A stretch of DNA of 45,512 nt from contig JAFZKP010000048.1 of assembly GCA_017553625.1 (NCBI GenBank), forward strand, positions 1 through 45,512. The letters run 5' to 3'. Positions within the stretch are counted from its first letter, which is position 1; each line of letters starts with the position of its first letter. The translations under genes and the position numbers were made by a program. Source of the stretch: Bacteroidales bacterium (lineage in GTDB: Bacteria > Bacteroidota > Bacteroidia > Bacteroidales > F082). The notes beneath the pieces were generated by a model. That model saw nothing but the letters and a program-made list of their open reading frames with translations, did not search any database and was not told the DNA's origin. Positions 2,839 to 41,694 of this stretch are shown here, in pieces.

Positions 2839-3949
2839 TAATCATATACATATAGTGAGTTTTGACATTCCGTGCCCTGTAAATTACGGTGGTGTCATTG
2901 ATGTGTTTTTCAAGCTTCAGGCGCTTGTCGAGCGTGGTTTCAAAGTTCATTTCCATTGTTTTGAATACGGCAGGGAGCATTCCAAGCGTCTTGAATCGTT
3001 GTGCGTTTCCGTTGATTATTACAAACGCGACATGTCGTTCTGGAAATTCTTCAGTGGCAAGCCGTATATCGTAACTTCAAGAATGTCAGAGGCTTTGATT
3101 CGGGATTTGCTCAAAGACGACTATCCGGTTCTGCTTGAAGGTCTGCACACTTGCGGCGTTCTTCTCGATGAGAGGATGCGCGGACGTAAGATTTTTGTGA
3201 GGGCGCATAATATGGAACACGAGTATTATCGTTATCTTGCAAAGACCGAGAAAAATCTCAGGAAAAAGCTGTTTTTGCGAATCGAATCCTCGAAATTGAA
3301 GAGATTTGAGTCTGTCTTGGCGAAAGCTATAGGTATCCTTGCCATCTCCAACAAGGATTACGAGTATTTCAAAAAGTCATTCAATAACGTTTATCTGATT
3401 CCTGCGTATGCCGGTTTCGACAAGGTCGACGTGCTTGAAGGTCTCGGTGACTACGTGCTTTACCATGGAAAACTTGACATTTCGGAGAATTACAATGCAG
3501 CGGAGTTTCTGATAAAAGAGGTGTTTAAGGATTCTGGCATCAAGTTTAAGATTGCTGGCATGAACCCGCCACGTCATCTGCTCGCGTGCGCTGAAAAAGA
3601 GCCGAATGTCGAAATTGTTGAGAACCCTGATGACGAGACGTTGCAGGAGCTGATTCGCAACGCCCAGATAAACATCCTTGTCACGGCGCAGTCCACGGGC
3701 TTGAAGCTGAAATTGCTGAACGCCTTGTTCAATGGACGTTATTGTGTTGTCAATGATAAGATGGTTGAGGGCTTGGATGTCAATGACTTATGTTATGTGG
3801 CAAACGACGCTGTGGAGATTAAGACCATCGTCTCCGACCTGATGACGAAGCCTTTTGTCGAAGAGCAGGTAGCCATCCGAAAGAGTAGGATGGAAGCTTT
3901 CTATAATTCATCACATTCCACCGACCGTCTCGTGGAGTTACTTGGATGA
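2822..3949 (+). CDS. Glycosyltransferase (GT-B fold, GT4-like)
   Basis: A 375-residue protein starting inside the end of the preceding glycosyltransferase gene. The N-terminal part (HIVSFDIPCPVNYGGVIDVF) fits the first Rossmann strand and glycine loop of GT-B enzymes that handle sugar chains. Later stretches such as VLYHGKLDISENYNAAEFLI, KFKIAGMNPP and LKLKLLNALFNGRYCVVND match the nucleotide-sugar half. It is more divergent than its neighbour, and substrates are unknown. Its last 12 bases overlap the end of the convergent ftsE gene. Confidence 0.78.
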   Translation: MRNTSDNHIHIVSFDIPCPVNYGGVIDVFFKLQALVERGFKVHFHCFEYGREHSKRLESLCVSVDYYKRDMSFWKFFSGKPYIVTSRMSEALIRDLLKDDYPVLLEGLHTCGVLLDERMRGRKIFVRAHNMEHEYYRYLAKTEKNLRKKLFLRIESSKLKRFESVLAKAIGILAISNKDYEYFKKSFNNVYLIPAYAGFDKVDVLEGLGDYVLYHGKLDISENYNAAEFLIKEVFKDSGIKFKIAGMNPPRHLLACAEKEPNVEIVENPDDETLQELIRNAQINILVTAQSTGLKLKLLNALFNGRYCVVNDKMVEGLDVNDLCYVANDAVEIKTIVSDLMTKPFVEEQVAIRKSRMEAFYNSSHSTDRLVELLG

Positions 3950-4609
3950 TTCTTTTATCGTGCCGTCGGCGCAGCTTATCACGCGCGAAGGGTATTTCAA
4001 GATAAGGTTGTAGTTGTGTGTCGCCATCAGAATGGTGGTTTTGTTTTCACGAATCTTCATTATGAGTTTCATGATGTCGTTGGTGGTCTCTGGGTCAAGG
4101 TTTCCTGTCGGCTCGTCTGCCAATATGACACTCGGGTTGTTGAGCAAGGCACGCGCTATCGCCACGCTTTGCTGCTCGCCGCCTGAAAGCTGGTGTGGCA
4201 TTGATTTTATCTTCCCTTGAAGTCCAACGAGTTGCAGAACCTCGTCGATGCGTTTGCTGATGCCGCTCTCTTCTTCCCATCCTGTGGCTTTAAGCACGAA
4301 AGAGAGGTTTTGCTCGACGTTTCTGTCGTAAAGAAGCTGGAAATCCTGAAACACTATTCCGATTTTCCTTCTCAGGAAAGGTATTTCTTTTCTTTTAATC
4401 TCATTGAGATTATATCCGGCAATGTTGAAGCTGCCGCTTTTTGCCGGTATGTCGGCGTACAAGGTCTTGAGCAGTGATGACTTTCCGGAGCCGCTGCGCC
4501 CGATGAGGTACACGAACTCGCCCTCGTTGATTTCGAGGTTAATATCTTTTAATATCAGTCTGTCGTGTTGGAAGACAGAACCATTTGTGATAGAGATTAT
4601 TGGAGTCAT
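3938..4609 (-). CDS. ftsE: Cell-division ABC transporter ATPase FtsE
   Basis: A 223-residue ABC ATPase of the FtsE/LolD/MacB group. Walker A is GRSGSGKS (37-44), the Q-loop lies in [10 protein letters not shown], the ABC signature is LSGGEQQ, Walker B is [10 protein letters not shown] and the switch histidine is in MATHNY. FtsE works with the membrane partner FtsX to activate peptidoglycan hydrolases at the division site. The length and the [20 protein letters not shown] start favour FtsE. No ftsX lies beside it in this window, as is often seen when ftsE and ftsX are split. LolD-type ATPases are the main alternative. Confidence 0.78.
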
Positions 4610-4613
4610 TATT

Positions 4614-4675
4614 AAATGTGTTTAATGTGTTGCTTCGCAAAATGTGTTACTTCGTAAAATGTGTTATTTCGCAAA
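4614..4675. repeat. Left repeat array: AATGTGT spacers with micro-hairpins
   Basis: Four AATGTG(T) copies (4615, 4624, 4641, 4658) alternate with 11-base micro-palindromes TTGCTTCGCAA, TTACTTCGTAA and TTATTTCGCAA. The array fills the space between the ftsE start and the stop codon of the four-helix-bundle gene. It is in opposite orientation to the array at 5041-5134. Confidence 0.85.
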
Positions 4676-5020
4676 TTAATCTGTTGATGATTTATATATG
4701 ATATAACTCAATAGTTTTATTATATTTTTTAGTTTTTCTTGTAATTCTTTTGTTGATGGATAATTTTCAGATTTATCACATAATATCAACCAGTATTTTG
4801 TTTCAATAGATTCTTTATGTGCTATTTTCAATTTGTGAATAAAATCGTTTTTACTTTCAGGTGATTGGGCTTCATGAATATTGGCTCCAATTGATGTTCC
4901 TGAACGTAATAATTGTTTTGATATTACATATTTGTTTGATTTGTCTAATATTTCACAAAATTTTATTATCTCAACAGCAAATTCAATGCTCAAATTTAAC
5001 AATACATTTTCTTGTTTCAT
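4676..5020 (-). CDS. Four-helix bundle protein (S23/IVS type)
   Basis: A 114-residue, all-helical protein of the family once called S23, encoded in intervening sequences of some 23S rRNA genes and as stand-alone genes in many Bacteroidetes. Typical signatures are a FAVEIIKFCE helix, the QLLRSGTSIGANIHEAQ block and KLKIAHKESIETKYWL. Relatives include the accessory Avd protein of diversity-generating retroelements, but no reverse transcriptase is nearby. The gene is clearly AT-richer than its neighbours and is bracketed by two inverted arrays of short hairpin repeats, which suggests it moved in as a cassette. The molecular role is unknown. Confidence 0.88.
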   Translation of the reverse strand: MKQENVLLNLSIEFAVEIIKFCEILDKSNKYVISKQLLRSGTSIGANIHEAQSPESKNDFIHKLKIAHKESIETKYWLILCDKSENYPSTKELQEKLKNIIKLLSYIIYKSSTD

Positions 5021-5040
5021 ATTTTTTTTGGTTTTTAAAA

Positions 5041-5134
5041 CACATTATTACACATTGGCCGAAGGCCCGCATTCAGCCTTTAGGCTGCACATTCAGCCGA
5101 TAGGCTGACACATTCAGCCTTTAGGCTGCACATT
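5041..5134. repeat. Right repeat array: CACATT spacers with micro-hairpins
   Basis: CACATT copies (5041, 5051, 5088, 5109, 5129) alternate with small palindromes: GGCCGAAGGCC (5057-5067), CAGCCTTTAGGCTG (5074-5087 and 5115-5128) and CAGCCGATAGGCTG (5094-5107). Read on the minus strand the spacer is AATGTG, the same word as in the left array at 4614-4675. The array ends two bases before the stop codon of the TPM-domain gene. Confidence 0.88.
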
Positions 5135-5136
5135 AA

Positions 5137-5949
5137 TCACCACTTCCCGCTTGCGCCGCCGCCACCGAAGTGACCGCCGCCAAAGCCTCCGAATCCGCCG
5201 CTTGAGCTGCTTGAGCCGCCGCCCCAACTGCTTGAGCCACCGTATCCGCCGCCACGATAACTGCCGCTACCTCCACTTTTGCCTCCACCTCTGCCAGTGA
5301 AAACACTTATTATATTTAGGAGAATTGCGATGAGGAATATACCTGCGATGAGTATGAAAAGTGCCAAGCCAACATATGTCTTGGTAGTCCATTCCTCGTC
5401 ATCTTCAGTATATTGAGCCGCGGTAAATTTGCCGGTTGACAATGCGATGATGTCGTCGCAAGCCTTGACGATGCCGCCGTAATAGTCGTTTTCCTTGAAA
5501 GCCGGAATCAACACATCATATATAATATGGTGACAAACCGCGTCGGTGAGATATTCTTCCATGCCGTATCCGGTCTGGATGGAACAATCGCCGCTTTCTT
5601 CCTCGGTCTTAGGCTTCACGAGAATCACGACACCGTTGTCTTCCTTGTTTCCAACACCCCATTTCTCGCCGAGTTGCTGCGCGTAGTCGTTGGAAGTGGT
5701 GCCGTCGAGGCTGGTGATGGTAACAACACAAATCTGTGTCGATGTGGTGTCGTTGAATTGCACCAGTTTGTTTTCTAGCGTTTGCACTTGCTCGTCTGTC
5801 AAAATGTTGGCGAAATCGTTGACAAGACGAGGCGGGTTAGGTCTTGCAGGAATGTTCTGCGCGAGACCGATGTTTACAAATAACAATAAACCCGTCAGGA
5901 CAAGGCATACCTTGTCCCAACGGCTTGTTTTATGTTTGGTATTCATCAT
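5137..5949 (-). CDS. TPM-domain membrane protein (YgcG family)
   Basis: A 270-residue exported protein. A signal segment (residues ~12-30, ending GLAQ) is followed by a TPM domain (LVNDFANILT... to ~170), a membrane helix near residues 190-215 (ALFILIAGIFLIAILLNII) and a glycine/serine-rich tail ending FGGGGASGKW. TPM domains bind phosphate-like ligands or metal and are linked to quality control of envelope proteins; the exact role is unknown. Its start overlaps the lemA stop by one base (TAATG), the common lemA-TPM pairing. Oddity: the signal peptide contains a dispersed palindrome read in frame (5898-5918). Confidence 0.87.
   Translation of the reverse strand: MMNTKHKTSRWDKVCLVLTGLLLFVNIGLAQNIPARPNPPRLVNDFANILTDEQVQTLENKLVQFNDTTSTQICVVTITSLDGTTSNDYAQQLGEKWGVGNKEDNGVVILVKPKTEEESGDCSIQTGYGMEEYLTDAVCHHIIYDVLIPAFKENDYYGGIVKACDDIIALSTGKFTAAQYTEDDEEWTTKTYVGLALFILIAGIFLIAILLNIISVFTGRGGGKSGGSGSYRGGGYGGSSSWGGGSSSSSGGFGGFGGGHFGGGGASGKW
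5898..5918. repeat. Dispersed palindrome in the TPM gene signal peptide
   Basis: GGACAAGG-CATA-CCTTGTCC, a near-perfect palindrome of the same family as that at 14996-15016. It encodes WDKVCLVL of the signal sequence. Confidence 0.75.
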
Positions 5950-8446: not shown

Positions 8447-8462
8447 ATCTTTAATCTTTTAA

Positions 8463-8550
8463 ATTATTCAGTTGTTAAGTTAATCAGTTATTCAGTTTTT
8501 TAATGCCAGGTTTAACTGAACAACTGACTAACTGATTAACTGACTAACTA
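8463..8550. repeat. Imperfect inverted repeat built from CAGTTA/TAACTG words
   Basis: The left half (8463-8500) is a run of CAGTT-type words and the right half (8512-8550) a run of AACTGACT/AACTGATT units. The halves are roughly complementary, so the segment between htpG and the divergent methyltransferase gene could fold into a long hairpin. It is made of the same unit as the tandem repeat at 441-503. Confidence 0.65.
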
Positions 8551-37419: not shown

Positions 37420-40400
37420 ATGAAAAAGCAATTTATTTTATCACTTTTGTTGATGTTCTCATTTTTAATGTCAGCCCAAGAAACAGTAACATTAAAATTT
37501 ACATCAAATTACCGTAATGCCTCCAATATGCCATTTGATTATGTGCTTGTTAAGGATATTACGCGGAATTGGCTTGAATGGTTAACACCTCCTGACACAA
37601 CAATAACTTTGACTGTTTATGATGGTATTTATGAACTGGATAATGATGGTGGCACTTTATCCGAAGCATTCCCAAATCCTTTTTCGGGTAAAACAAATCT
37701 GATGTATATCATAGAGATGCCGCAAACGGTTAAAGCACAATTGTTTTCGTTCAACGGACAATTAATCAGCGAGTTTAGAGGATCTCTTGATGCGGGCACT
37801 CACATGTTTACCATTGAAATGGATAGACCACAAATGGCGTTTTTTGCTGTCACGTCGGGCAATAATAAATGTTATAAAAAGGTCTTGAATATTGGGGGCG
37901 GAAATAATAATAAGATAGAAGTTGATAAAATCTCCGGTCATAATCAGCCAAGAGATGTTAGAGTGGGTGATTTTGTTGTTGGAGATTTAATGGAATATGA
38001 AGCAGTAATATATGATAATGGCAATGATATTAGTAGAGTAATAACGCAAAACCAGTATGGTGACGAGGTTATTTCATTTACTTTTGATTTACATATACCG
38101 ACTGTAACAACCTATGCCGTTGGAAACATCAGCCAAACTACAGGAATGAGTGGTGGAATTGTCACATCAAATGGAGGCGCAATTGTTACAGAACGTGGTA
38201 TTTGTTGGAGCACAAGTCATAATCCGACCATTAATGACAACCATGCAAATAATGGTTCTGGGAATGGCGACTATATAATTACAATGACTAATCTTGTACC
38301 AGGTACTACTTATTATGTAAGAGCTTATGCCATAAATAATGTTGGGATAGCATATGGGAATGAAGTGAGTTTTACAACATCACAAAACAACACTGCTCCG
38401 ACTGTGACAACAAATCAGGTGACAGATATTACACAAACTACAGCTATATCAGGTGGCAATGTTACATCAGATGGTGGTGCTGCAGTAACAGCTCGTGGTG
38501 TATGTTGGAGTACGAGTCATAATCCAACAACAAGCGACAGCCATGCAAGCAGTGGAACAGGAAACGGTTCATATACAGTAAACGTTACAGGATTGACAGC
38601 TAATACAACATACTATGTTAGAGCCTATGCAACAAATAATGTTGGAACGGCCTATGGTAATGAAATGAGTTTTACAACCGAATCCGAACAAATTTGGCCT
38701 AATGGTGTTCTGCCTGGATTGTTTTCTGTTAGTTCAACGCAGCAAGTCAATTTTTCACAGGGAAATTTACAATACCAAGCATCAACAAATACATGGCGAT
38801 TCGCGGATAATCAATATGATTATATAGGTAATAATAACAGTAATATTTCATCAACATATAGCGGATGGATAGATTTGTTTGGTTGGGGAACAAGTGGATA
38901 CAATCATGGTGCAGTGTGTTATCAACCATGGAGTACAAGTCTATCTAATAGCGATTATTATGCCTATGGTGATGTAACTTACAACCTGTACGACCAAACT
39001 GGAAAAGCAGACTGGGGATACAATGCTATTTCCAATGGAGGAAGTGCGGAAAATATGTGGCGTACATTAACTATGAATGAATGGGGTTATGTTTTACTTT
39101 CTAGAAATACAAACAGCGGAATAAGATATGCGAAGGCACAGGTTAACGGAATAAATGGAATTATCCTACTCCCTGACAATTGGAATAGTAGTACATACAG
39201 TTTAAATAATACCAATACAATTGACGCTTCATATACAACAAATATCATCAATTCAACAGACTGGAGTTCTATAGAAATGGCTGGCGCAGTTTTCATTCCT
39301 GCTGCAGGTTTTCGCTATGGTTTGACAGTTAATGTTAGCAGTTTGGGGGCATATTGGTCTTCTGGCGGATACCTAACTATCACTATAGCACCTTGCTTAA
39401 GCTTTTACGATAACAATTTGGTTGCTACTGATGGTGATAATCGAAGAAACGGTTTAAGTGTACGTCTTGTTTCGTGTGAAAGTGTTGATACTCCTACCGT
39501 TACGACAAATAATATCACAAATATTACACAAACTACAGCAACAGGCGGCGGAATTGTAACTTCAAGCGGCAGTACAACAGTAACCGCTCGTGGTATTTGC
39601 TGGAGTACAAATCATAATCCGACGACGAGTGGAAACCATACTACAAATGGAACTGGAACAGGAAGTTTCACGGCTGATATTTCAGGATTGACAGCAAATA
39701 CCACATATTATGTAAGAGCTTATGCAACAAATAGTGTTGGGACATCGTATGGAAGTGAAGTCAGTTTCACTACATCTCAAAATGTAACTGCACCAATAGT
39801 TACGACAAGTAGTATAACCAACATTACTCAAACAACAGCAACAGGTGGAGGCAATGTAACATCAGATGGTGGAGCCACAGTAACAAGCCGAGGCATCTGC
39901 TGGAGTACAAGTCATAATCCTACGATTAGCAGTAATCACACTACGAATGGTTCAGGAACTGGAAGTTTTACAGCTAATATAACAGGACTAACAGCAAATA
40001 CTACTTATTATGTAAGAGCATACGCAACAAATAGTGTGGGAACATCGTATGGAAGTGAAGTCAGTTTCACTACATCTCAAAATGTAACTGCACCAATAGT
40101 TACGACAAGTAGTATAACCAACATTACTCAAACAACAGCAACAGGCGGAGGTAATGTAACATCAGATGGCGGTGCAACAGTTACAGCTCGTGGTATTTGC
40201 TGGAGTACAAGTCATAATCCAACAATAAATGGTAACCATACTACAAATGGAACTGGAACTGGAAGTTTTACGGCTAATATGACAGGACTAACAGCAAATA
40301 CTACTTATTATGTAAGAGCGTACGCTACCAATAGTGTTGGAACATCATACGGAAATGAGGTGAGTTTTACGACATTACAAAATGCCACTGTTCCTACTGT

Positions 40401-41694
40401 TTCGACAAACTATAGTGTTACAAACATTACTTCAACAACAGCGACATGTGGCGGTAATGTGACATCAGATGGCGGAGCAACAGTAACAGAACGTGGTATT
40501 TGTTGGAGTACAAGTCACAATCCTACTAATAGTAACTACCATGCATCAAATGGTACAGGTACAGGAAGCTTTACCGCTAATATGACTGGACTTAATGCAA
40601 ATACAACATATTATGTTAGAGCATACGCTACCAATAGCGTGGGAACTTCTTATGGAGGTGAAATAAGTTTTACAACCCAATCATTGTCAACTTATACGAT
40701 TAGTGTTTCAGCAAATCCAAGTTTTGGAGGATACGTAACTGGTGGTGGAAACTATAGTTATGGACAAACATGTACGGTTCATGCTATTCCATATGATGGA
40801 TACGTTTTTGCTTATTGGACTATGAATGGTGTATATGCTTGGGATCAAGCTGACTTTACTATTATAGTATATGGGAATGAAACATTAGTGGCTCATTTTA
40901 CAGGTCCAACTATTCCAACAGGCGCAATAAACGGGTTATTCTCTGTTAGTGCGACAAAACAAGTTTATTTTTCGAGAGGGAATTTACAATACCAAGCATC
41001 AACAAACACATGGCGTTTTGCTAACAATCAATATGATTATGTTGGAGAAGATAATAGTAATATCTCTTCAACATATAATGGTTGGATAGATTTGTTTGGT
41101 TGGGGTACTAGTGGTAATGATCATGGCGCAGTGTGTTATCAGCCATATGGCATAAGTACAACAAATAGTGATTATTACGCATATGGTTCAGCATCATATA
41201 ATCTAAATAACCAGACAGGACAAGCTGATTGGGGCTATAACTTGGGTGGTAACATTGTTAATTTGTGGAGAACAATGACTGCTCAAGAATGGATATACGT
41301 ATTGAACACAAGAAATACCGTATCTGGTATACGTTATGCCAAAGCGAGAGTGAATAATGTGAATGGTGTTGTTTTATTACCTGATAATTGGAGTACAAGC
41401 ACTTACACTTTAAGCAATACAAATACGGGTAATGCGAATTATGACAGTAACATAATCTCGGCTTCTCAATGGATTACTTTACAAAATGCAGGCGCAGTAT
41501 TTCTGCCTGCGGCAGGCGAACGTGGTGGAAATTCTGTCGGATGGGTCGGCTCAGAGGGTAACTATTGGTCAGCTACTCACTTTGATAACTACCAATCATA
41601 TTCCGTTTCTATTGGCGGAAATGGATTCGCTCCTAATCAGAAAAGAAGTCGTGGTTATGGTCAAAGTGTTCGTTTAGTCATTAATGCTCAATAA
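37420..41694 (+). CDS. Repeat-rich surface protein with Fn3-like repeats and two copies of a ~240-residue module
   Basis: A 1424-residue exported protein. The ATG at 37420 gives the signal peptide MKKQFILSLLLMFSFLMSAQ; an in-frame ATG at 37390 gives no better start. Residues ~80-158 look like a T9SS sorting domain (EAFPNPFSGKTNLMY ... KKVLNIGG), unusually placed at the N-terminal side. Six fibronectin-III-like repeats (~95-100 residues, ARGICWSTSHNPT ... TTYYVRAYATNSVGTSYG pattern) and one InlB B-repeat follow, together with two copies of a ~240-residue module (LFSVS...GNLQYQASTNTWRF to SVRLV). Repeats 4 and 5 share 104 identical bases. The gene is AT-rich and has no C-terminal sorting domain. 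A role as surface adhesin or binding protein is a guess from the architecture. Confidence 0.8.
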   Translation: MKKQFILSLLLMFSFLMSAQETVTLKFTSNYRNASNMPFDYVLVKDITRNWLEWLTPPDTTITLTVYDGIYELDNDGGTLSEAFPNPFSGKTNLMYIIEMPQTVKAQLFSFNGQLISEFRGSLDAGTHMFTIEMDRPQMAFFAVTSGNNKCYKKVLNIGGGNNNKIEVDKISGHNQPRDVRVGDFVVGDLMEYEAVIYDNGNDISRVITQNQYGDEVISFTFDLHIPTVTTYAVGNISQTTGMSGGIVTSNGGAIVTERGICWSTSHNPTINDNHANNGSGNGDYIITMTNLVPGTTYYVRAYAINNVGIAYGNEVSFTTSQNNTAPTVTTNQVTDITQTTAISGGNVTSDGGAAVTARGVCWSTSHNPTTSDSHASSGTGNGSYTVNVTGLTANTTYYVRAYATNNVGTAYGNEMSFTTESEQIWPNGVLPGLFSVSSTQQVNFSQGNLQYQASTNTWRFADNQYDYIGNNNSNISSTYSGWIDLFGWGTSGYNHGAVCYQPWSTSLSNSDYYAYGDVTYNLYDQTGKADWGYNAISNGGSAENMWRTLTMNEWGYVLLSRNTNSGIRYAKAQVNGINGIILLPDNWNSSTYSLNNTNTIDASYTTNIINSTDWSSIEMAGAVFIPAAGFRYGLTVNVSSLGAYWSSGGYLTITIAPCLSFYDNNLVATDGDNRRNGLSVRLVSCESVDTPTVTTNNITNITQTTATGGGIVTSSGSTTVTARGICWSTNHNPTTSGNHTTNGTGTGSFTADISGLTANTTYYVRAYATNSVGTSYGSEVSFTTSQNVTAPIVTTSSITNITQTTATGGGNVTSDGGATVTSRGICWSTSHNPTISSNHTTNGSGTGSFTANITGLTANTTYYVRAYATNSVGTSYGSEVSFTTSQNVTAPIVTTSSITNITQTTATGGGNVTSDGGATVTARGICWSTSHNPTINGNHTTNGTGTGSFTANMTGLTANTTYYVRAYATNSVGTSYGNEVSFTTLQNATVPTVSTNYSVTNITSTTATCGGNVTSDGGATVTERGICWSTSHNPTNSNYHASNGTGTGSFTANMTGLNANTTYYVRAYATNSVGTSYGGEISFTTQSLSTYTISVSANPSFGGYVTGGGNYSYGQTCTVHAIPYDGYVFAYWTMNGVYAWDQADFTIIVYGNETLVAHFTGPTIPTGAINGLFSVSATKQVYFSRGNLQYQASTNTWRFANNQYDYVGEDNSNISSTYNGWIDLFGWGTSGNDHGAVCYQPYGISTTNSDYYAYGSASYNLNNQTGQADWGYNLGGNIVNLWRTMTAQEWIYVLNTRNTVSGIRYAKARVNNVNGVVLLPDNWSTSTYTLSNTNTGNANYDSNIISASQWITLQNAGAVFLPAAGERGGNSVGWVGSEGNYWSATHFDNYQSYSVSIGGNGFAPNQKRSRGYGQSVRLVINAQ

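Follow-up and report, generated by a model that had tools for sequence, protein, structure and literature searches.

The stretch of DNA analysed here, the window, is a 45,512-nt contig of a Bacteroidales bacterium. Between the genes for an ftsE-like ABC ATPase and a TPM-domain protein it carries a small gene of the S23 (23S_rRNA_IVP) four-helix-bundle family, enclosed by two arrays of short words in opposite orientation (Table 1). A preliminary description of the locus had reported a left arm of AATGTG and a right arm of CACATT words alternating with micro-palindromes, an S23-type gene between them, and a block fitting between the start of ftsE and the stop of the TPM gene, and all of this is borne out. 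The left arm comprises four AATGTG words and three micro-hairpins lying between or after them (TTGCTTCGCAA, TTACTTCGTAA and the imperfect TTATTTCGCAA), and the right arm five CACATT words and four hairpins, namely GGCCGAAGGCC and three of the form CAGCC...GGCTG. The stop codon of the S23 gene immediately adjoins the left arm. Both arms exceed chance (TRF scores of 83 and 107), with array periods of 17 and 20 nt. The two sides do have different hairpins, as had been described, but this is no special property of the locus, as hairpins vary within arrays elsewhere in the same genome. The gene lies outside 23S rRNA and its locus (L001) has no rRNA match. Rfam gave no match to the arrays in L027, L066 or L001, and defence-system models gave no matches.

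Table 1. Features of the S23 locus and its neighbours (window coordinates)
Feature	Position	Strand	Details
ftsE-like ABC ATPase	3938..4609	-	downstream neighbour; start at 4609
Left arm	4615..4675	+	AATGTG words at 4615, 4624, 4641, 4658
Left-arm micro-hairpins	4630-4640, 4647-4657, 4664-4674		last one imperfect
S23 / 23S_rRNA_IVP four-helix-bundle gene	4676..5020	-	114 aa; PF05635 E=3.4e-24, TIGR02436 E=5.3e-28
Right arm	5041..5134	-	CACATT words at 5041, 5051, 5088, 5109, 5129
Right-arm hairpins	5057-5067, 5074-5087, 5094-5108, 5115-5128
Degenerate right-arm word	5068		CGCATT
TPM-domain protein	5137..5949	-	upstream neighbour; stop at 5137

An AlphaFold2 model of the S23 protein (mean pLDDT of 96.2) has its best PDB match in BT_0352 of Bacteroides thetaiotaomicron (2rld, E=7.5e-7), followed by XCC0516 (2gsc, E=1.4e-3). 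The predicted fold also resembles, more weakly than it does BT_0352, that of Avd of the diversity-generating retroelements (DGRs), with a TM-score of 0.69 for 4dwl (E=0.2) and of 0.66-0.69 for the DGR RNP structures 8ub8 and 8ube, all Avd/DGR matches having E above 0.1. Homology between PF05635 and Avd has been suggested (PMC10053308), and the structure of a Xanthomonas S23 protein has been described as a homopentameric ring (PMC4990558).

Two further repeat types were observed in the window. Arrays of AACTGA octamers lie at 441-503 and 8459-8549, one direct and one inverted; the family is also dispersed in a sample of genome G122 and is close to the published TAACTGA repeats, and no S23 gene was found beside the copies examined in the window and in G122. 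Positions 39499-40670 are occupied by a tandem repeat (period 300, 3.9 copies, 82% matches).

Arrays in the window's genome and genus

The words are dispersed through the genome from which the window comes (2.47 Mb in 52 contigs, 87% complete), where AATGTG-N4-18-AATGTG pairs number 185 against 7 for a reversed-pattern control and AATGTG-N16-46-CACATT matches number 67 against 1. Nearly all of these dispersed AATGTG/micro-hairpin arrays are without an S23 gene. A gene-less copy typically has the form AATGTG[hp]AATGTG[hp]AATGTG-hairpin-ATT-hairpin-CACATT[hp]CACATT, where [hp] stands for a hairpin, and its middle is a short hairpin pair in place of the gene. Among 40 clusters of at least four words, taken from loci fetched from five array-bearing genomes, 27 point inward, none outward, 12 run one way and 1 is mixed; 8 lie mostly within an open reading frame of at least 120 aa and 32 do not. 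Weak PF05635 matches on three contigs of the window's genome (C21, C1 and C8) were considered as additional gene-bearing copies and rejected, having no surrounding AATGTG arrays. A Y1 transposase was likewise rejected as a partner: the sole Y1_Tnp match in this 87% complete genome (C13:849-1190) has no array nearby, and the 2.7-kb locus around it holds one AATGTG and no arrays.

Segments running from one AATGTG to the next at the fetched array loci (n=160) have a terminal stem of at least 4 bp in 61.9% of cases, compared with 2.5% when shuffled. The element folds better as RNA than its shuffles do (z -3.44), and array stretches taken as single-stranded DNA reach z below -4 in three cases of four. 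Between close relatives the stems covary only weakly, with 13 changes that break them against 4 that are compensated, and covariation was therefore dropped as proof of structure. Three-base loops are TNC on the AATGTG strand, which is GNA on the opposite strand, in 54 of 63 instances, tandem copies being counted. Hairpins of the d(GCGAAGC) type are stable, and the GNA and GNNA loops on the CACATT strand, again with tandem copies counted, are no more than suggestive of a single-stranded DNA form.

A scan of a named genome collection, which may omit the window's own genome, turned up 30 stretches with the array unit; their titles give Parabacteroides (two species), Bacteroidales or Bacteroidia, and some mention goat omasum or water-buffalo rumen. 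A scan of viral contigs found the unit in none. Across 99 genomes of the genus, a strict array pattern has 75, 50, 15, 12 and 11 matches in five, a single match in each of two, and none in 92. The window's S23 gene (84-100% identity) is present in exactly the five dense-array genomes (at least 11 strict matches), and the only other matches in the genus at E up to 1e-20 are 50% and 45% identical. Two gene trees, one of ftsE with 23 rows (5 of them array-bearing) and one of a neighbouring glycosyltransferase with 17 rows (4 of them array-bearing), place these genomes in three lineages. Both trees need three label changes, and 0% of 200 bootstrap trees unite the array group; well-supported branches force at least two changes, and thus the S23 gene and dense arrays were gained or lost jointly at least twice. 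The S23 gene is under purifying selection, with dN/dS of 0.09-0.15 between lineages (ftsE, 0.06-0.08). Its dS between lineages (0.51-0.94) is below that of ftsE (1.16-1.30). A more recent lateral transfer could account for this, but a gene of 114 AT-rich codons is too short to press the point.

The co-occurrence is not strict, since sparse arrays occur in at least three genomes where the window's S23 was not found. One of these, G006 (62% complete; L127 and L371), has, between TPM and ftsE as in the window, a small gene-less array made up of three AATGTG words and a single CACATT, and a pair elsewhere on the same contig. In the second, G015 (99% complete), short arrays with CAGCCTGCGGCTG hairpins occur at two sites, and the third, G086, has one pair at one site. 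These sparse arrays may be relics, or else copies for which the gene is dispensable.

Between TPM and ftsE, five genomes carry the S23 gene flanked left and right by arrays. Empty sites in relatives, for which the preliminary description had suggested looking, exist: in 7 of 30 ftsE loci only about 12-14 nt separate ftsE from the TPM gene, and neither an S23 gene nor any word is present. The remaining ftsE loci have other neighbours or longer spacers and are array-free except in G006. The earlier picture of a small transposase-free cassette therefore holds in so far as gene and arms are found together in five genomes and are both absent from seven relatives, but it is too narrow for a family with dispersed gene-less arrays. 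Arrays widespread without the gene had been named as evidence against that picture; they are found inside array-bearing genomes, and in G006 at the very same site, yet dense arrays remain linked to this S23 subfamily. By flank matching, some gene-less array sites are common to several lineages and others are absent from genome G084. For a single gene-less site a clean alignment to an empty site was obtained across both edges; it shows no evident target-site duplication, and the edges are AT-rich and changed.

Flanks and words of other S23 genes

Inverted flanks were scored by comparing the 150 nt to the left of a gene with the reverse complement of the 150 nt to its right, with a cut-off of 14. 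Scores of at least 14 were obtained at 85 of 97 Bacteroidales S23 loci, which are not independent, many lying at a common site. Among the controls, such scores were reached by 5 of 321 genes and by 5.9% of 765 swapped pairs; when the flanks of the S23 loci were compared in direct orientation, 24.7% reached them. Of the five control genes, one is itself an S23 gene and another a PDDEXK_3 nuclease gene with its own repeats. The 97 loci were taken from a ranked S23 list from the top down, with a few skipped, together with loci of other searches; L095 (no ORF found), L146 (wrong ORF chosen) and one locus with a short flank were left out of the counts. The window's own arms score only 11.5, below the cut-off. 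The arms at these S23 loci are short-word arrays whose word varies from locus to locus. The preliminary description had named S23-type genes lacking such flanks as evidence against it; S23 genes across the order do have inverted array flanks, and relatives of the window's S23, described below, have words similar to AATGTG (RATKTG). In a sample of G084 from which S23 loci were excluded, GTTTAC/GACTAA arrays are inverted in 3 of 6 cases, oriented as around the S23 genes of that genome, and one-way in the other 3.

Ten S23 loci lie at one common site as judged by neighbours (L082-L087, L091, L093, L094 and L148, with L085 matching on one side only), and the orientation of the S23 gene is reversed in L082 and L148. 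The words at this site (GTCTTTAG, GCCATTAG and GACCTTAG) differ by species, yet the arms match within each locus, with scores of 19.5 to 30; a homogenising process or repeated insertion is needed for words to differ by species and still match between arms.

Inverted arms are found at 12 of 20 plasmid S23 loci, compared with 3.7% of 380 swapped pairs, in a set covering 20 of 31 records (17 cyanobacterial and one each from Gemmatimonadota, Alphaproteobacteria and Flavobacteriia); L310 and L318 are unannotated, and their gene ends were guessed. The S23 gene of L318, on an Azospirillum plasmid, is an insert within 23S rRNA (Rfam LSU match of 1107.7 bits) with inverted GGACAGA-type arms. At three plasmid loci (L304, L306 and L314) the S23 gene lies among cas genes: on two plasmids it has cas6 and cas4 as its neighbours, and on the third it has cas10 on one side and a cmr3-family gene on the other. 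Inverted arms scoring at least 14 occur at L306 and L314, and at L304 the arrays to either side run in the same direction. S23 genes of this setting have been reported as functions associated with CRISPR-Cas (PMC3936711), and the flanking arrays at these three loci permit the alternative reading that they are inserted elements. On a Nostoc plasmid (L303) two ribonucleotide reductase genes enclose an S23 gene whose arrays are inverted and of the GGGAGTA type.

The word follows the protein subfamily. Twenty-seven relatives of the window's S23 protein (51-63% identity) from other families of the order were taken as the first 27 new places of another ranked list. In their left flanks RATKTG occurs 104 times forward and 6 times reverse, and in their right flanks 9 times forward and 101 times reverse. 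At least two RATKTG words on each side in the correct orientation are present at 20 of the 27, with 7 failing, compared with 0 of 95 other S23 loci (the window and L155 having been removed from this group) and 0 of 400 random positions. Together with the window and with L155, the latter having the same neighbours as L335 and L347, the relatives make up 29 loci in 17 distinct neighbourhoods. More generally, 847 S23 pairs of at least 110 bits at non-homologous sites have a word in common in 33.9% of cases, against a permuted mean of 8.9% and a permuted maximum of 13.0% (0 of 2000 permutations as high); a reversed-word control gives 0.5% to 6.4% across all similarity bins. Many of the RATKTG relatives have the word at a period of 8-10 nt and no hairpins, which suggests that spacers in the form of hairpins are new to the lineage of the window. 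AATGTG with micro-hairpins is a special form of a wider rule, by which related S23 proteins go with related words.

Dispersal of the words varies. In 334 kb of G398, from another family, with S23 loci masked, RATKTG pairs at 8-nt spacing number 9 versus 0, and at two other spacings 0 versus 0 and 2 versus 1. Of 12 S23 words counted over four genome samples, only 5 exceed their reversed control twofold or more. Words are commoner in their own genome, with a mean of 33.6 over 12 own comparisons and of 16.4 over 328 foreign ones (reversed controls, 13.9 and 14.6; Mann-Whitney p=0.0045, on data that are not independent). For two Nostoc plasmid S23 words dispersal was not found, with 0 or 1 matches in 100 kb of each plasmid.

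Relation to known systems

S23/IVP proteins are widespread and have solved structures, but to our knowledge no known function; equally, we know of no maker of the short intergenic repeat arrays found in Cyanobacteria, Bacteroidota and elsewhere. These two old loose ends may be one thing. In REPIN-RAYT systems a single-copy gene lies beside its own repeat family, inverted pairs are dispersed outside genes, and several gene-repeat pairs with different words may occur in one genome (PMC3116915); a GTAG or CGTC tag stands beside the palindrome (PMC3733652). The S23 element likewise has a gene beside its own repeats, and inverted pairs scattered mostly between genes, with 27 of 40 clusters pointing inward. 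It differs in that its gene encodes a PF05635 Avd-like four-helix bundle, whereas RAYT is a Y1 (HUH) tyrosine transposase, and in that the constant word AATGTG is the unit of an array with varying hairpins and without a GTAG/CGTC-tagged palindrome. The element is thus REPIN-RAYT-like in layout and not a member of that group, with no transposase.

Among the intervening sequences (IVS) of 23S rRNA that carry an S23 ORF, that of Coxiella has tandem heptamers ahead of its ORF and a 28-bp terminal inverted repeat (PMC4990558). The window copy belongs to the same gene family, S23 (PF05635), and also has its ORF between complementary arms, which have the word in common in inverted orientation, though their whole-arm score is only 11.5. 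Unlike the IVS, it lies between protein genes and its word is dispersed genome-wide. Published heptamers in intergenic arrays include TAACTGA in Beggiatoaceae, Cyanobacteria and Bacteroidetes (PMC4679880), and GGGAATC in Xanthomonas and GGGGA(C/T)T in Nostoc (PMC4679880, PMC4692102). The window arrays share with these the short words and intergenic position, but differ from direct arrays of 7 nt in their unit of 17-21 nt with hairpins. MacGregor speculated that a repeat-binding protein might be the mobile element behind the TAACTGA arrays, with the S1, Csp and Csr families as candidates in the abstract (PMC4679880); the term S23 has no match in the main text of PMC4679880 or PMC4692102. In the largely open-access literature covered, no link between S23 genes and dispersed arrays was found. 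S23 resembles DGR Avd in predicted fold, but its gene neighbourhood differs from a DGR, with neither a reverse transcriptase nor a TR/VR pair noted there. On the features tested, no known kind fits this family of elements made up of a gene and its cognate repeats.

Candidate explanations

The best explanation is that the window holds a gene-bearing copy of a dispersed element family, and that S23 genes in general head such elements. In such an element an S23 gene would be enclosed by two arrays that point inward and repeat a short word, which in the window is AATGTG with micro-hairpin spacers. We lean, by little more than an even chance, to the fuller statement that S23 genes and their cognate inverted arrays form one element family with gene-bearing and gene-less copies, in which S23 recognises the word and maintains or spreads the arrays. 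The restriction of dense arrays to genomes with this S23 subfamily is the reason for reading gene-less arrays as further copies of one element. The S23 protein, as an Avd-like bundle with a pentameric solved relative, would most likely bind nucleic acid carrying the cognate word; we infer that it probably recognises its own word and that, with enzymes supplied in trans, it could maintain or spread the arrays. As a speculative route, spread might proceed through single-stranded DNA at replication or, by analogy with Avd-dependent retrohoming, through an RNA/cDNA intermediate. The arms, their dispersal, the co-occurrence of dense arrays with the gene, the empty sites, the correlation of subfamily with word and the purifying selection are observed and support this explanation, to which the predicted fold is added. 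Against it stand the sparse arrays of G006, G015 and G086, the single clean empty-site alignment with no target-site duplication seen, the limited dispersal of S23 words in the genome samples and on the Nostoc plasmids, the AACTGA family with no S23 found beside it, the weak stem covariation, the score of 11.5 for the window's own arms and the 7 of 27 relatives that fail on RATKTG. Moreover, gene and arms descending together could produce the link between word and subfamily without recognition.

Carried further, that objection gives an account in which S23 genes are selfish insertions whose ends happen to be arrays, gene-less arrays are decayed copies and the protein is inert on the arrays. 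The presence of gene and arms together at the site in five genomes and the absence of both from seven relatives favour descent alone, as do the gene-less array of G006 at the same site, which looks like a remnant, the correlation of word with protein, as expected from co-descent, several S23 words that are not dispersed, and the use of the same sites in different genera. It is nevertheless unlikely, since strong purifying selection on S23 and the dense-array pairing in three lineages suggest that the protein matters, and the ten-locus site, where species differ in word and arms agree, calls for homogenisation or repeated insertion.

The arrays might instead be structured RNA or DNA in leaders and intergenic regions, with solo arrays as the targets of S23, which would be a regulator that binds RNA or a guide for RNase III. 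The mainly intergenic position of the arrays (8 of 40 clusters lie mostly within an ORF of at least 120 aa and 32 do not) and the folding scores (z -3.44 for element RNA, below -4 for three of four single-stranded DNA stretches) agree with regulation, as do the excision of 23S inserts by RNase III (PMC4990558) and the translational regulation that MacGregor proposed for TAACTGA arrays (PMC4679880). A ribonucleoprotein of this kind is improbable, however, given that array sites vary between relatives and that 92 of 99 genus genomes have no strict array match, which is unusual for a core regulator. Arrays of hairpins between genes are common in bacteria, and the locus could in principle be no more than ordinary terminators or REP-like repeats beside an unrelated small gene; the inverted flanks at 85 of 97 S23 loci as opposed to 5 of 321 control genes, the tracking of subfamily by word and the lack of Rfam matches to arrays in L027, L066 and L001 make such a coincidence hard to credit.

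Returning to the element family, its layout points to a gene-plus-repeat system that may spread without any known transposase. A wider proposal, offered tentatively and with more doubt than belief, is that the S23 (IVP) family is the common driver of many short-repeat array families and of the 23S IVS, each subfamily having its own word and spreading without a transposase, perhaps by an Avd-like RNA/cDNA route with a reverse transcriptase encoded elsewhere.

A different gene was also seen beside repeats in G084 (L226:10761-11192), where a PDDEXK_3 (GxxExxY) nuclease gene is flanked by inverted repeat copies holding GGCTCAAAATCTT. The 12-mers of this repeat are among the most repeated in a 400-kb sample of that genome, and this may be another case of a gene family that has a dispersed repeat to itself.
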